From the NCBI GenBank assembly GCA_944391685.1, contig CALXUM010000005.1, positions 1 to 64,000 on the forward strand: a stretch of 64,000 bases of DNA. Direction: 5' to 3'. The notes below the pieces were generated by a model. That model ran no database searches. It was not told the DNA's origin and saw only the letters and a program-made list of their open reading frames with translations. The DNA is from an uncultured Alphaproteobacteria bacterium. Its GTDB lineage: Bacteria > Pseudomonadota > Alphaproteobacteria > RF32 > CAG-239. The position numbers and the translations under genes were made by a program. This document shows, in pieces, positions 20,655-46,775 of this stretch; the first letter of the stretch is position 1, and every line of letters starts with the position of its first letter.

Positions 20655-22289
20655 ATGAGTGGAATAAGCCTGACAGCAAGCATGCGCTCAAATTTGCTCA
20701 GTCTGCAAAATATCAGCAGACAAGTTGATTCTACCCAAAACAAACTTTCCACTGGTAAAAAGGTCAATTCCGCCATAGATAATCCCAGCTCATATTACAC
20801 CGCGCGTTCACTTACCAACCGGGCCAGTGATTTAGATGCCTTGCTAGATTCCATGGGGCAGGCGGTATCAACCATCAAGGCGGCCACAGAGGCTTTAGAG
20901 AGTGCGGCTGATTTTTTGGAACAAGCCAAGGCCGTTGCCAGTCAAATGCTGGAAACAATGCCTGAAATATTCATAAAACAATTAAGCGGTATCAGTGATG
21001 ATGCCTCTATCAGAAACACCAGTTTGTTTGACGGACGTGCCAACACCCAAGCGATGATAGATCAAATAGGAGATGATGCTTTAGCTGCCACGGCATGTAA
21101 TCAATTTTATGCTCCGGGTGTAGATAAAAATGATGCCAACTTCGGACAGGGGCAATGGTATCTGCCGGCCATCGGTGAATTGATGGAAATGTACGGCTTT
21201 GATGTTGGAGGAATAACTCAGGCAAGTGATACAACCGGAAATACAGGAAATGGAATAGCGGCAATCAATGATGCTCTTTTAATTTTAAAAAATAAAGGTG
21301 TCGATGCAGAAATATTTTCTAAAGATTATTATTGGACATCTACAGAAAAAGACAATGCCAGTACATGGACTATAAGTATGGGTAGTGGCTCTCGTAATTT
21401 TACTTATAAAGGAGGGCAAGGATACGGGCTCAATATTCGTTGTTTTTCTAAAGTTAATATTGATATATCCAATAATATTCCTCAAATAGGAGATGTTTTA
21501 TATTCAGATGGTAGTTATAGCAAAGCTAATGAATATGATGGCAATAAAACCGTTGTTGGTGTAATATCCGGAATTTCAGAAGACGGAAACTCCGTTAAAA
21601 TTGTTAATTTAAAAAACTTAAATTTTGTCTCTAGGGATAATGTAAATAACTTTAATCCCGATAATCCATACACCGGAAATGTTAATAACACGTATCATAC
21701 AACAGCATCAAAGTCGTGGGAAGACATCTCAAACATTGAAGACTGTAGTCAACATCAGTTTTTATCAGCTTTTCAAGAAGCAGCTGCTGAGAGTTCGGCC
21801 AAATATAATAATACAATCTCACAATACATCTCTATCATCAGCCAATATGATTCATTAATCAAAGATGCCGGATATAAAGTGGTGAATCTCCTGCAAGAAC
21901 AAGATTTGAAAGTAACCTTTAATGAGGGGAGAACATCTTGGCTTGATGTGATAGGCAAGGATGCATCATCAGCCGCTCTTGGTTTAACCACCTTAGAGTG
22001 GAACACGAAAGAAGATGTTGAGAAATCAATTGAGGAACTAACCAACGCCACAAATCAAATTCGCTCCATGTCTGCAGAGTTGGGAAGTTATTATAACATT
22101 GTTTTATCTCGCCAAGATTTTACTGAGAATTTGATAAATGTCTTGGAAGAAGGGGCTGATAAGCTAACCTTAGCGGATATGAACGAAGAGAGTGCTAACA
22201 TGCTCGCCCTGCAAACAAGACAGCAACTTGCAATCAATTCTTTATCACTTGCCTCACAAGCCGCACAGGGAATATTGAGATTGTTTTAG
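20655..22289 (+). CDS. Flagellin with an inserted FISUMP/DUF1566-like domain
   Basis: Flagellar filament protein. The N-terminal D0/D1 helices (about 1-140; SGISLTASMRSNLLSLQ and STGKKVNSAIDNPSSYYTA) and the C-terminal helices (about 400-544; ALQTRQQLAINSLSLASQAAQG) are clear flagellin. Between them, about 145-265, lies a segment with the hallmark pattern of Fibrobacter-type FISUMP/DUF1566 domains: QWYLPAIGEL (W168), YYWTSTE (W227) and a closing IRCFSKV (R262, C263). A further beta-rich stretch follows to about 395. The fold is C-type-lectin-like in related families, so the filament surface may display a ligand-binding domain. The gene is monocistronic and has its own AACAACGAGG ribosome site. 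Confidence 0.88.
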   Translation: MSGISLTASMRSNLLSLQNISRQVDSTQNKLSTGKKVNSAIDNPSSYYTARSLTNRASDLDALLDSMGQAVSTIKAATEALESAADFLEQAKAVASQMLETMPEIFIKQLSGISDDASIRNTSLFDGRANTQAMIDQIGDDALAATACNQFYAPGVDKNDANFGQGQWYLPAIGELMEMYGFDVGGITQASDTTGNTGNGIAAINDALLILKNKGVDAEIFSKDYYWTSTEKDNASTWTISMGSGSRNFTYKGGQGYGLNIRCFSKVNIDISNNIPQIGDVLYSDGSYSKANEYDGNKTVVGVISGISEDGNSVKIVNLKNLNFVSRDNVNNFNPDNPYTGNVNNTYHTTASKSWEDISNIEDCSQHQFLSAFQEAAAESSAKYNNTISQYISIISQYDSLIKDAGYKVVNLLQEQDLKVTFNEGRTSWLDVIGKDASSAALGLTTLEWNTKEDVEKSIEELTNATNQIRSMSAELGSYYNIVLSRQDFTENLINVLEEGADKLTLADMNEESANMLALQTRQQLAINSLSLASQAAQGILRLF

Positions 22290-39156: not shown

Positions 39157-41310
39157 TTACTGATTTGTAACTTGACATGATGAAGAAGAACAACTAATAC
39201 ATTTTTTACCTGAATAGTAAGAGCTTCCTCCAATTGTCAATGTTCCAGAACTTATGTTAAAGCATTGGCTTGTCGTTTGTCCCTTTTGCGGTAAAGGAAT
39301 AGATATTGAAGATCCACTGCCAATTGTTAATGGATTTGAAGGCACCGTAATTATTCCATTGCTGGCAAGTCCACTTATGCTTAACCTAGAATTCTTAATC
39401 TCTCTAATTGAAATATTAAACGAACTATATGAATTGGTATTCGAAATATTTCCAATTGATATATCGTTATATATTGGAATAAGAGTTAGCCCGCTACCAG
39501 TGCTTCCGCCATTTACTACAATATTGTTTACGTAAGTTGAAGCACTGGATGTTGATCCGGTATCACCCTGAATGGTAAGCCCCTTATCATATGGTAAATT
39601 TAATTTTCCTTTTAGTTCGATAGTACCCTTGTTGGTAATAGTTGTAGAAAATTCTAAACTTACGTTTATTGAAGAGGTAGATGTCGCCAGAGTTGCTCCG
39701 TTGTTTACAATAATGGAAGGAGCACTGTTATATGAGCTACATTCCGCTTTACTTATATATCTTGATAAATCATAAAGCGTTACGTTTTTATTGAAAGTAA
39801 TACTTCCTGATATTGTTAAGTTTTTAGCTATATACAAATTTGTCTTTCCATTGCTTATAGCAGATTGTAAATCACTAAAGCTTTCTATAAAGGCATCATA
39901 GTCACCGCTTGCAACAGTTGTTTTACAAGTTCTGGCAACACATTTTCCGCAAACGTCATTACCATAATATGTTGTTGATTGCTCATAATCTTCATTGCTT
40001 CCGCAACTTGATGCAGTTATTCCTGCTGTAAATCCGTAAGGACATTGTTTTTTAACACAACGTGTACAACTTACTCCATTTAAAGTTCCGTTCTTACTAA
40101 GTGTCCAACCGCTTGACCCTGTTGTACCGCAATTTTTAACATCCTGAATACTTGTACTGTAATTTTGAGGACAAGATGAAACTATGCAAGTTCCGCATCT
40201 GTTGTTTCCTGAGTAATAAGAATTAGCAGTCCACGTAGCATTACTAGCACAATTTGCCGCAGCTTGAATTGTTCCAACCTGACAAGCTTTGGCAACGCAT
40301 TTATACAAAGTTTTTGCTCCGGCATAACATTTGTCTGTAGAACTTAACGTCCATCCGCTAGCTCCTGTGGTTTGACAACTTGCAGCAGTTGTTTGATAAG
40401 TGTTTGTGCATGTGTTTTCTTTACAATATCCACACTGAGTTTCTCCAGTATAGCTGGTCGTTCCTGTCCATTTCCAACCATTTGATCCGTTGGTTTGGCT
40501 ATAACAATCTTTTTGTGTCTTTTGATCAGAAGGACAATTTAGAGGGTTACAATAAGCACATTCAGTATTACCATTATAACGAGTTTTGTCAACAAGCCTG
40601 CTATACCCGCTACCGCATGTTGTCACACCGGAAAGATAAGGGCTGTTACAACTCAAAGCTTTACAAGTACCATACAGTTTATCACCGGAATAACAATAAC
40701 TTCCCGATGAAGTCTTATCAAGAGTCCATCCAAGAGATCCCGTGGTTCCGCATTGTGAAACTGTTTCTTTATATTTATTTGTGTCACATTGTTTTGTCTT
40801 ACAGGTACCATACAAATCATCACCGGAATAACAATAATTTCCCGCTGTTGTAGTGTCAAGCGTCCATCCTAGAGATCCCGTAGTTCCACATTTTGAAACT
40901 GTTTCTTTATATCTATTTGTGTCACATGTATTTTTCTCACAAAGTCCACATTTTAGTTCCCCTGAATATCCTTTATAAGAATACTTCCAACCGCTTTTAT
41001 TGGTAGTATTACCGCAATTATCAATTGATTGATATTTTGTGCTATATCCTGAAGCACAATTTAGAGGTTCACAAATATAACAAATAAGATGATCTCTTTT
41101 TTCTATAACATCATCTTTTCTGCATGAATATCTAGTTCCATCTTTAGGGGCAGTAAATCTTCCTTCTGGACAAACATAACCGTGGTTACTGTAATCATCA
41201 TTACCACGATTCAAGTTATCTCCCAAATAGTCAGGAAGCCAATGTACACCAGCATAAGCCGCACCGGAAAACAAAATCAAACCTAAAATTAAAGATAAAA
41301 GCTTTTTCAT
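39157..41310 (-). CDS. Large secreted cysteine-rich repeat protein
   Basis: A 717-residue exported protein with no known function. The ATG at 41310 (MKKLLSLI) is 7 bases after GGAG; the ATG at 41316 is too close to it. A signal peptide ends near AAYAG. Residues about 40-450 consist of around nine to ten modules of roughly 40-46 residues, each with a Cys-rich core such as CGTTGSLGWTLD followed by GxxxYCYSGD and C-x-x-x-x-C pairs. The C-terminal part (about 460-715) is low-charge, Ser/Thr/Asn-rich and beta-helix-like (SITFNKNVTLYDLS), ending with more Cys. The disulfide-rich repeat plan suggests a surface or adhesin-like protein; that role is inference. Confidence 0.75.
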   Translation of the reverse strand: MKKLLSLILGLILFSGAAYAGVHWLPDYLGDNLNRGNDDYSNHGYVCPEGRFTAPKDGTRYSCRKDDVIEKRDHLICYICEPLNCASGYSTKYQSIDNCGNTTNKSGWKYSYKGYSGELKCGLCEKNTCDTNRYKETVSKCGTTGSLGWTLDTTTAGNYCYSGDDLYGTCKTKQCDTNKYKETVSQCGTTGSLGWTLDKTSSGSYCYSGDKLYGTCKALSCNSPYLSGVTTCGSGYSRLVDKTRYNGNTECAYCNPLNCPSDQKTQKDCYSQTNGSNGWKWTGTTSYTGETQCGYCKENTCTNTYQTTAASCQTTGASGWTLSSTDKCYAGAKTLYKCVAKACQVGTIQAAANCASNATWTANSYYSGNNRCGTCIVSSCPQNYSTSIQDVKNCGTTGSSGWTLSKNGTLNGVSCTRCVKKQCPYGFTAGITASSCGSNEDYEQSTTYYGNDVCGKCVARTCKTTVASGDYDAFIESFSDLQSAISNGKTNLYIAKNLTISGSITFNKNVTLYDLSRYISKAECSSYNSAPSIIVNNGATLATSTSSINVSLEFSTTITNKGTIELKGKLNLPYDKGLTIQGDTGSTSSASTYVNNIVVNGGSTGSGLTLIPIYNDISIGNISNTNSYSSFNISIREIKNSRLSISGLASNGIITVPSNPLTIGSGSSISIPLPQKGQTTSQCFNISSGTLTIGGSSYYSGKKCISCSSSSCQVTNQ
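40661..40936 (-). repeat. Two near-identical 138-bp tandem units within the cysteine-rich gene
   Basis: Units 40661-40798 and 40799-40936 share TTACAAGTACCATACA / TTACAGGTACCATACA starts and long matching blocks including TATCACCGGAATAACAATAA. Each unit encodes one 46-residue module. The similarity is much higher than between other modules, so this duplication is recent. Confidence 0.85.
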
Positions 41311-41460
41311 GTCCATACTCCAAATGGTATACTAACCCTTATTTATAAGTTTAACTTAATAAAAATTTTTAGTCAATCAAGAATAGAAAAAGTTACGTAA
41401 ATTTAACAAAATTGTCACAAAACTATTTTGTTTTTATTCACATATATATGAGAATTGTTG

Positions 41461-41524: not shown

Positions 41525-42865
41525 ATGGCAGATTTTACCGCAAACATACTTCAAGAACTAAACAAAATGGATACCGCGTCTTACTACGGCAAGGTAACAG
41601 GTGTCCAAGGATTGTTTATTGAAGTTAGCGGGATTCTTTCTCAGTTGTCCATAGGAGATCGTTGTAATGTAATTAACAACAATAACCAAAAAGTTCCCTG
41701 TGAAGTTGTTAGTTTTAGGGAAGATAAACTTCTTTTGATGCCATATGCCTCATTGGAAGGAATAGGTTTAGGATGTGTTGTTGAGGTTGAAGATGCCAGA
41801 CCGGTAATTTATCCTCATCCATCGTGGCTTGGCCGTATCATTAATGCCTTTGGTGAAGCAATTGACGGTAAGGGCCCCCTCATTAAAGGCAATAAGCCTT
41901 ATTTTATCAAGTCATCACCGCCGCCGGCACAGTTCAGAGACAGGGTTAAGGGCAAGGTTGATTTGGGTGTTAAGGCTGTAAACACTTTTTTGACTATTTG
42001 CAAGGGGCAGCGTATGGGCATTTTTGCCGGCTCCGGCGTTGGTAAATCTACTCTAATGTCAATGATGGCACGCAATACCGATTCTGATGTTTCGGTTATA
42101 GGTTTGGTGGGTGAACGCGGACGTGAGGCTAAAGAATTTGTTGAGGATGTTTTGGGAGAAGAAGGACTTGCTAAATCTGTTCTTGTTTTGGCAACATCTG
42201 ATGAAAGTCCCTTATTACGCCGTCAAGCAGCATACGTTACCATGGCGGTTGCCGAATATTTTCGTGATGAAAACAAAGATGTTTTGTGTATGATGGATTC
42301 TATCACTCGTTTTGCCATGGCTCAAAGAGAGATAGCTTTATCAATCGGTGAGCCTCCGGCATCTAAGGGCTATACGCCAAGTGTTTTTTCAGAACTTCCC
42401 AAATTGTTGGAAAGGGCGGGCCCAGGAGCCGGAACCGGAACTATTACCGGTTTGTTTACGGTTTTGGTGGATGGAGATGATCATAACGAACCTGTGGCCG
42501 ACGCGGTTCGCTCAATTTTGGATGGACATATTGTCTTAGACAGGTCTATTGCCGAGCGTAATCGTTATCCGGCAATTAATATCTTGCGTTCAATCTCTCG
42601 TACCATGCCGGACTGTGATACAGAAGAAGAATATGCCCTTGTGGCCAAAGCTCGTCAATATATATCATCATATGAAGATATGGCAGAGCTAATACGCCTC
42701 GGAGCTTATAAAAAAGGTTCAAACCGTGAAGTTGACGAAGCAATATTTTATTATCCCAAAATTGAAGAATTTTTATCACAAGGCAAAAAAGAAAAAGTTA
42801 GCCTTGCCGAAGGATATGAGCTTTTAGGAAATATACTGGCTCAACCGTATAATCCCGGAGCTTGA
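41525..42865 (+). CDS. fliI: Flagellum-specific ATPase
   Basis: Hexameric ATPase of the flagellar type III export apparatus. Walker A is GSGVGKST at 169-176, the Walker B and arginine-finger region is VLCMMDSITRFAMAQREIALSIGEPP, and the characteristic PGAGTGTITGLFTVLV follows. The 446-residue length matches FliI and F1-beta relatives. The gene is separated from fliJ by 5 bases. It supports a flagellated cell, together with the flagellin at 20.7 kb. A short 11-bp tandem repeat lies just upstream. Confidence 0.94.
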   Translation: MADFTANILQELNKMDTASYYGKVTGVQGLFIEVSGILSQLSIGDRCNVINNNNQKVPCEVVSFREDKLLLMPYASLEGIGLGCVVEVEDARPVIYPHPSWLGRIINAFGEAIDGKGPLIKGNKPYFIKSSPPPAQFRDRVKGKVDLGVKAVNTFLTICKGQRMGIFAGSGVGKSTLMSMMARNTDSDVSVIGLVGERGREAKEFVEDVLGEEGLAKSVLVLATSDESPLLRRQAAYVTMAVAEYFRDENKDVLCMMDSITRFAMAQREIALSIGEPPASKGYTPSVFSELPKLLERAGPGAGTGTITGLFTVLVDGDDHNEPVADAVRSILDGHIVLDRSIAERNRYPAINILRSISRTMPDCDTEEEYALVAKARQYISSYEDMAELIRLGAYKKGSNREVDEAIFYYPKIEEFLSQGKKEKVSLAEGYELLGNILAQPYNPGA

Positions 42866-42870
42866 TATAG

Positions 42871-43314
42871 ATGAAGAATTCTCTTCCCTCTCTGACACAG
42901 ATTCAAAAGTTCAAAATTGATGAGCAACGAAAACTCCTTTCCGAACAACTTGAGTTGGAAGAAAAAATTATCAATAATATCAAAATGCTTGATGCCAAAT
43001 ATAATGAAGAAAAAGCCTTTGCCTTAAAAAATCCGCTTGTTGGAGATTTTGGCATTTATACCAAAAGGTATCTTGAGCTTCGCCAACGCGAACAAGATAA
43101 TCTTCAGGCCGTTCGTCACCGAATAGAAGAAATCAAAGATATTATAGCCGATATGTTTAAAGAACAAAAAACTTATGAAATAGTTGATGATCATCGTCGC
43201 AAGACAGCTCAACAAGAAGCCGATCATAAAGAACAAAACATGCTTGATGAAATCGGAACCAATGCTTATATAAAACAACATGACAACAATCATGAAGGAG
43301 AAAAAAATGTTTGA
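42871..43314 (+). CDS. fliJ: Flagellar export protein FliJ
   Basis: Small (147-residue) coiled-coil protein recognised mainly by its place directly after fliI and by the alternating charged heptads throughout (EEKIINNIKMLDAKYNEEKA and REQDNLQAVRHRIEEIK). FliJ is the gamma-subunit-like stalk that activates the FliI hexamer. Its sequence is poorly conserved across bacteria, so position is the main evidence. The last 8 bases overlap the sodB start. Confidence 0.8.
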   Translation: MKNSLPSLTQIQKFKIDEQRKLLSEQLELEEKIINNIKMLDAKYNEEKAFALKNPLVGDFGIYTKRYLELRQREQDNLQAVRHRIEEIKDIIADMFKEQKTYEIVDDHRRKTAQQEADHKEQNMLDEIGTNAYIKQHDNNHEGEKNV

Positions 43315-45732: not shown

Positions 45733-45820
45733 TATTAAATTGTACTGTCTAGAATGAAGAAGTTTATAATATATTGAAAAACAATGATAACCAGTGTTGT
45801 GAGTTCGTGAAAATTATAAA

Positions 45821-45986
45821 AACAGCTATTTTTGAAAAACAAACATTCGAAACTGCTGAAAGGCTTGGAAATAAAAGAACCTTCTCTTAGCTTTGCTAGG
45901 CTTTAGCCGCAGCAAAGGTTAGTTGGTCGCGCAAGTAGGAAACTTGTTTCCGTAGCGGCGCAAACAGCAGCCATTTTCATGACTGC
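45821..45986. repeat. 166-bp structured repeat, copy A
   Basis: Matches 46601-46766 exactly offset by 780 bases. From about 45858 to 45986 only one base differs (G45958 versus A46738). Strong hairpins: CTTTGCT/AGCAAAG enclosing GGC-TTTA-GCC; GGAAAC-TT-GTTTCC; and on the minus strand GCAGTCAT-GAAA-ATGGCTGC, an 8-bp stem with a GNRA tetraloop. It may encode a small RNA or be a recombination element. No protein reading frame spans it. Confidence 0.85.
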
Positions 45987-45992
45987 TATTTT

Positions 45993-46471: not shown

Positions 46472-46600
46472 AATACAATTCTCCTAATACATTATAGTCC
46501 AATAATAAGATATAAAACATTTATATTTTACTAAAAATATATTGAATATTTAATTTATTAAAAACAAATAGAGTTCAAATCATTTCGAATATTTGCCTAA

Positions 46601-46766
46601 AACATCGATTTTTGAAAAAGTAACACTCGAAACTGATAAAAGGCTTGGAAATAAAAGAACCTTCTCTTAGCTTTGCTAGGCTTTAGCCGCAGCAAAGGTT
46701 AGTTGGTCGCGCAAGTAGGAAACTTGTTTCCGTAGCGACGCAAACAGCAGCCATTTTCATGACTGC
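46601..46766. repeat. 166-bp structured repeat, copy B
   Basis: Second copy of the 45821-45986 element, ending 10 bases from the tRNA-Glu 3' end. The single core difference (A46738 for G45958) changes a U-G to a U-A pair in a GTCGC/GCGRC stem if read on the plus strand, so pairing is kept. Confidence 0.85.
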
Positions 46767-46775
46767 CGTTTGAAA

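Follow-up and report, generated by a model that had tools for sequence, protein, structure and literature searches.

For the middle regions of flagellins, 61 domain types have been described, as have proteolytic flagellins (Eckhard et al. 2017, PMC5595980). Proteins with a DUF1566 domain, in turn, are the most common annotated targets of diversity-generating retroelements (DGRs) (PMC6642488). In the Legionella adhesin Lcl, it is the C-terminal region that carries a DUF1566 domain, shows resemblance to C-type-lectin-like domains, and acts as a glycosaminoglycan binder (PMC11162425). In the open-access literature that we searched, the link between flagellins and DGRs amounts to one word in one survey: "flagellin" appears once in the 2019 survey (PMC6642488), in a list of DGR-target annotations and without further study, and flagella go unmentioned in the main text of the large 2021 DGR survey (PMC8144416). 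DUF1566 is absent from the ten domains given in the main text of the flagellin study (PMC5595980), and our search of open-access publications found no paper on DUF1566 flagellins or DGR-diversified flagella.

Here, we describe a flagellin gene in a 64,000-nucleotide stretch of DNA (the window) from an uncultured, gut-type alphaproteobacterium, together with related flagellins of its genus. The D0/D1 scaffold of this protein can be aligned throughout to FljK of Caulobacter (8uxj) and its relatives among the alphaproteobacterial flagellins; unlike the window protein, FljK, with its 270 amino acids, carries no insert. As in flagellinolysin and other domain-bearing flagellins (PMC5595980), a foreign globular domain is located in the middle of the protein and would be displayed on the filament. 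However, flagellinolysin is a peptidase, whereas the insert in the window protein is lectin-like, is situated in a helical turn of D1, and belongs to a multigene set with apparently interchangeable inserts. With the Lcl C-terminal domain (8q4e) it shares the DUF1566-type domain of a surface adhesin, as indicated by a sequence-profile match (E = 1.2e-9), but Lcl is a trimeric, collagen-like glycosaminoglycan binder devoid of flagellin parts. A putative DGR in a sister species, G002, corresponds to the described DUF1566/C-type-lectin targets in domain type, place of the variable repeat (VR), and possession of RT, Avd, and template (PMC6642488, PMC8144416); in contrast to the surveyed targets, the protein targeted here is a subunit of the flagellar filament whose variable domain lies mid-protein. 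Known kinds of protein, domain-bearing flagellins and DUF1566 DGR targets, are combined here in an unexpected way.

RESULTS

A flagellin gene with a lectin-like insert

The initial annotation, based on the DNA letters alone, described the gene at 20655-22289 as a flagellin whose variable central region is replaced by a FISUMP/DUF1566-like domain. The ORF is intact at exactly these positions on the + strand, and both ends of its product exceed their Pfam cut-offs (Flagellin_N, residues 11-98, 38.2 bits versus 26.6; Flagellin_C, residues 461-544, 34.7 bits versus 23), in agreement with a flagellin carrying a non-flagellin middle domain. The gene is composed as follows:

20655..22289, + strand: flagellin gene with central insert; intact ORF, 544 amino acids, Flagellin_N and Flagellin_C above cut-off
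20655..20942, + strand: D0 plus the first helix of D1 (residues 1-96); Pfam, profile alignment to Caulobacter FljK residues 13-107
20943..21827, + strand: insert (residues 97-391) separating the two N-terminal helices of D1; HMM-bounded, FljK alignment resumes at 104
21018..21458, + strand: Lcl_C/DUF1566-like (C-type-lectin-type) domain, about residues 122-268; Pfam Lcl_C, profile matches to 8q4e and 4eps
21333..21446, + strand: equivalent of a DGR variable repeat, residues 227-264 (WTSTE...IRCF); codon comparison, alignment, motif scan
21480..21644, + strand: small second domain of the insert, approximately residues 276-330 (GDVLYSD...KTVVGVI...); alignment of lectin-type flagellins
21828..22289, + strand: rest of D1 and C-terminal D0; Pfam Flagellin_C, FljK residues 104-270

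A profile of 28 flagellins covered the whole of FljK (8uxj, 270 amino acids) in two stretches, FljK residues 13-107 and 104-270. The D0/D1 ends of the insert flagellins are full-length up to the C-terminal LF, and the last 150 residues share 93% mean identity among the flagellin copies of the window genome. According to the HMM and FljK alignments, the insert comprises about 290 amino acids, starting near residue 97-104 and ending at about 391; the boundaries first proposed, 140-400, began some 40 residues too late. In the profile alignment, the insertion point falls at about FljK residue 105; in flagellin structures, this is where the chain turns from the first to the second N-terminal helix of D1. 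The D2 domain of Salmonella flagellin leaves D1 at the same end as this helical turn, and thus the insert should face outwards. The middle domain is indeed foreign, but its site is the D1 turn and not that of the canonical D2/D3, as a replaced central region had implied. A canonical D2/D3 identity of the insert itself was considered and rejected, given this placement and the lack of any Pfam D2/D3 or Flagellin_IN match in the insert among the 28 members examined.

The lectin-like unit at about residues 122-268 bears WYLP, YWSS/YWTS, and RCF motifs, and the YWTSTE and RCF signature noticed initially maps to its residues 226-231 and 262-264. Lcl_C (PF07603, formerly DUF1566) matched residues 161-257 with E = 1.4e-5 and 25.8 bits, below the curated cut-off of 34.9, and we therefore refer to the unit as DUF1566-like. 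All six Lcl_C matches in the window genome are flagellins (best score 34.2 bits, none reaching the cut-off), and 25 of 28 related flagellins matched Lcl_C independently (best E = 1.1e-7), which argues against a chance resemblance. A profile of the unit built with phage relatives retrieved 8q4e at E = 1.2e-9 and the C-terminal end of 4eps, annotated as a hypothetical protein and with no flagellin ends known, at E = 2.8e-6. With a flagellin-only profile, 8q4e was matched at E = 0.0026, and the single window sequence used alone as a query did not match it. 4eps is probably a pilus protein of Bacteroides and would then represent a parallel case. At profile level, the insert domain is homologous to the Legionella Lcl C-terminal adhesin domain. 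Two AlphaFold models were of poor confidence (pLDDT 51 and 46), and in a Foldseek search with such a low-confidence model 8q4e ranked fourth, with E = 1.1; these models do not enter the evidence for or against the fold.

The initial classification held for the DUF1566 type and failed for FISUMP proper, since Fib_succ_major (PF09603) gave E = 0.03 and 15 bits against a cut-off of 33.9. Flagellinolysin was rejected as well: no peptidase match was obtained in the window flagellin or the 28 members, and the window sequence contains no HExxH. For the second unit (GDVLYSD...KTVVGVI), no Pfam match was found; a protein of a viral contig matches window flagellin residues 276-409 at 27%.

Flagellar export and chemotaxis genes are present within the 64-kb window, and the genome is predicted to encode flagellar export parts, including the following:

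41525..43314, + strand: fliI-like export ATPase and fliJ-like gene; Pfam, FliJ below its own cut-off

Also in the window, a gene for a cysteine-rich secreted repeat protein of 719 amino acids without Pfam match (39157-41316, - strand) contains two tandem 138-nt copies, 85% identical, at 40661-40936. A direct repeat of 173 nt (94% identical) occurs at 45819-45991 and 46599-46771, with a spacing of 780 nt.

Flagellin repertoire of the genome and the genus

About 12 flagellin loci were found in the window genome (G000; 1.57 Mb, 25 contigs), six with lectin-like inserts, four with beta-helix-type inserts, and two with neither. Three of the six lectin-like loci end at contig ends and one has an internal TGA; at least one of the four beta-helix loci is split into two frames. 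The beta-helix-type flagellins G000:C18:16929-18265 and C1:119206-121179 are interrupted by frameshifts, located close to where the first D1 helix stops or close to the N terminus, and these could reflect decay, assembly error, or phase variation.

Flagellins are present in 33 of 35 genomes of the genus, and a single genome can have as many as 20 Flagellin_N matches and 27 first-look candidates. In a set of 121 different flagellins that possess both ends, picked mainly for their inserts, the insertion point holds 18-23 residues in most plain flagellins, 118-139 in a few, and 242-552 in the long class. Two large groups stand out among the long inserts, lectin-like (n = 26) and beta-helix-like (n = 51), and a small number of the beta-helix-like inserts match the pectate-lyase-like adhesive domain. 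When related alphaproteobacteria were surveyed, the lectin-type insert recurred in sister species of the genus, and none was seen outside the genus in a class-wide sample of 385 genomes with the best few candidates scored per genome. Outside the genus, the same D1 insertion point bears other domains, e.g., in L295 from another family. G353, also from another family and with a 33% full-length match, was considered as an example of the lectin insert beyond the genus and rejected, because its insert is a different domain.

Sister species furthermore encode giant secreted proteins of 1300-1800 amino acids (L174:2123-7528, L182:3696-8933, and L183), which pair the lectin-like unit with the second unit and contain up to three DUF1566-like units each; they may be donors of flagellin inserts. 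Upstream of the G004 insert flagellins and several of the window genome (examples are L106, L108, L113, and L114) lies a common box with a length of about 85 nt (CTGTGGAAAAG...TTTGTTG...TAATATATT), and further upstream the sequence is locus-specific. The window's own flagellin copy does not have this box.

Probable exchange of inserts between loci

We compared loci with neighbor gene names assigned by eye. At the locus adjoining bactofilin-like and hook-protein-like genes, the window genome has a beta-helix insert versus a lectin-like insert in G004, and a second syntenic locus differs likewise. At the cysS locus, which harbors the window flagellin, the insert is lectin-like in both genomes. 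For 52 insert flagellins, a tree computed from their flagellin ends grouped mainly by species and required 10 changes of insert class, at least 8 of them forced by well-supported branches, compared with 15.7 for shuffled labels. Lectin-like and beta-helix copies within one genome have nearly identical ends. Considering the syntenic class differences and the core tree, we infer that the ends are homogenized within a genome and the inserts exchanged, which makes these inserts appear as interchangeable cassettes on a conserved flagellin scaffold.

A putative diversity-generating retroelement at a sister-species flagellin

A complete flagellin-targeting DGR is known here from one MAG, that of the sister species G002 (CALXTU010000002.1, uncultured Alphaproteobacteria BRZ_PK__bin103). 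A segment of about 4.5 kb (L176/L226) comprises, in this order, a 119-nt template repeat (TR), RT, Avd, and a flagellin of 786 amino acids with the VR inside its lectin-like insert. The segment is chromosomal, with housekeeping genes on both flanks. TR and VR differ at 15 of 119 nt, and in 13 of these 15 cases the template base is an adenine (P = 1.9e-5). The remaining two mismatches lie side by side close to the 5' edge, and in their final stretch the repeats do not differ, up to CTGCTTTT. A 6-bp stem with a 5-nt loop was noted downstream of the VR at a distance of a few tens of bases, the regional fold being no better than that of shuffles.

The RT bears IGNLTSQ and YVDD motifs and matches Pfam RVT_1 and the PHROGs RT (1.8e-96); the Avd protein matches Pfam bAvd (1.5e-16) and PHROGs Avd (2.8e-25). 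The closest relatives of the RT occur in genomes of Flavobacteriales and Parabacteroides as well as in phages, including Bordetella phages; none were found in the viral contigs searched. Judged by gene order, motifs, and mismatch pattern, the G002 segment has the anatomy of a DGR, with all parts present and an insert flagellin as its target.

Footprints in other species and the state of the window copy

The alignment of lectin-type flagellins revealed a fixed framework, YYWSSSE...SW...NG.R...K....YVRCF, with hypervariable positions in between. In the four lectin-type flagellins of G003, mismatch frequencies at codon positions 1/2/3 of the VR were 0.49/0.40/0.13, compared with 0.13/0.12/0.29 and 0.08/0.02/0.20 in the flanks, aligned by codon since indels on the 3' side spoilt the ungapped version, and about 0.01/0.01/0.14 at the flagellin N end. 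Variation in the G003 VR is depleted at third positions (P = 0.0002); A and G are frequent where the sequences vary. The variable segment of G004 presents a mixed picture with more frequent third-position changes. Neither a template repeat nor a matching RT for the flagellin was found in the assemblies of G003, G004, and the window genome, possibly due to loss or to assembly gaps. Because flagellin RT and template are missing from those assemblies, the G003 and G004 patterns are read as footprints, not as running systems.

In the window copy, the segment equivalent to the VR is diverged and lacks the conserved 3' tail CAGCTTTTAGAAAAT, and no codon-position signature of the G003 type was detected in this segment among the paralogs of the window genome. 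Since these features are missing and the genome has neither a flagellin template repeat nor a suitable RT, the window copy is probably not a DGR target and not diversified at present. We infer that it descends from a diversified ancestor.

The window genome does contain a phage-type DGR, at L032:10629-10962 (G000:C2), with a 113-nt template and a variable repeat beside the RT; this template type recurs in G018 (L191). Its prophage-type RT, the sole RT of the genome, was rejected as part of a flagellin DGR because the 113-nt template matches only its own target. A TGA inside the C18 copy was likewise discarded as a DGR by-product, as other copies have CGA at this position, which points to a C-to-T change and not to adenine mutagenesis.

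DISCUSSION

We consider it likely that the genus combines polymerizing lectin-domain flagellins, swappable inserts spread over many genes, and, in at least one sister species, DGR-mutated loops to produce varied binding filaments. The window gene would encode a flagellin that assembles into filaments and exposes, where D1 ends on its outer side, a C-type-lectin-like binding domain of the DUF1566 type, as one member of a multigene set with interchangeable lectin-like or beta-helix inserts. Recombination in the conserved flagellin ends would carry inserts between loci, and in at least one sister species a chromosomal DGR would mutate the lectin loops at adenines, now or until recently. The outcome would be filaments with varied ligand-binding surfaces, for adhesion and/or escape from antibodies and flagellum-binding phages. 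An adhesin function of the insert flagellins is plausible, and ligand binding with changing specificity is favored because of the fixed framework with variable loops, the kinship to a glycan-binding adhesin, and the display on a polymer.

The main rival to ligand binding is escape from antibodies or phages, and both may act together. In the form that dispenses with ligand binding, the inserts would be decoys against host antibodies or flagellotropic phages, held as a reservoir for antigenic variation. Numerous copies, interchangeability of unrelated inserts, an expected surface position, and hypervariable loops are all compatible with this, but the DUF1566-like framework is kept while variation falls on the loops, and among solved structures the closest to it is that of a glycan-binding adhesin. 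Moreover, cellular DGR targets mostly bind extracellular partners (PMC8144416), and we regard a pure decoy role as rather unlikely.

It also seems quite unlikely that the insert is an ordinary hypervariable flagellin domain, that is, an unrelated D2-type insert kept by drift and recombination, with the DGR as a local peculiarity of G002. Flagellin middle regions hold at least 61 domain types (PMC5595980), plain flagellins of the genus and L295 have different inserts at the same D1 site, and the window copy itself has no DGR. However, the adenine-type footprint, with codon positions 1 and 2 variable and position 3 fixed, is strong in G003, a different species.

The proteins might, alternatively, have ceased to polymerize and be exported by the flagellar machine as free adhesins. 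Inserts reach 552 amino acids, plain flagellins of the same genome could build the filament, and flagellin-homologous proteins of Vibrio are reported to be secreted in excess (PMC6692518). Conservation of the D0/D1 ends down to the C-terminal LF, their 93% mean identity, and their alignment along all of FljK make such a loss of polymerization improbable. Strong positive selection combined with gene conversion, instead of a DGR, would accommodate the lack of an RT in G003 and G004, but is similarly improbable as the source of the codon-position bias in the VR, given the template, RT, Avd, and mismatches on template adenines in G002 and the G003 third positions conserved below flank level next to highly variable first and second positions.

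With binding filaments as the preferred reading, it is tempting to go one step further. Tens of flagellin genes carrying lectin-like or beta-helix inserts, lectin loops hypermutated by a chromosomal DGR, and cassettes shuffled through recombination among loci might together give the flagella of this genus an antibody-like repertoire, with many binding filaments per population; we put this forward as a tentative possibility.

Flagellin is among the best-studied bacterial surface proteins and a main antigen of gut bacteria. If a filament subunit served as the scaffold on which a retroelement generates diversity, two well-known systems would be united, and the ways in which motile commensals change their adhesion or escape from antibodies, innate recognition, or flagellum-binding phages would become testable. 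Cassettes carried on one conserved scaffold also suggest a display platform provided by nature, in which each filament would bear thousands of copies.
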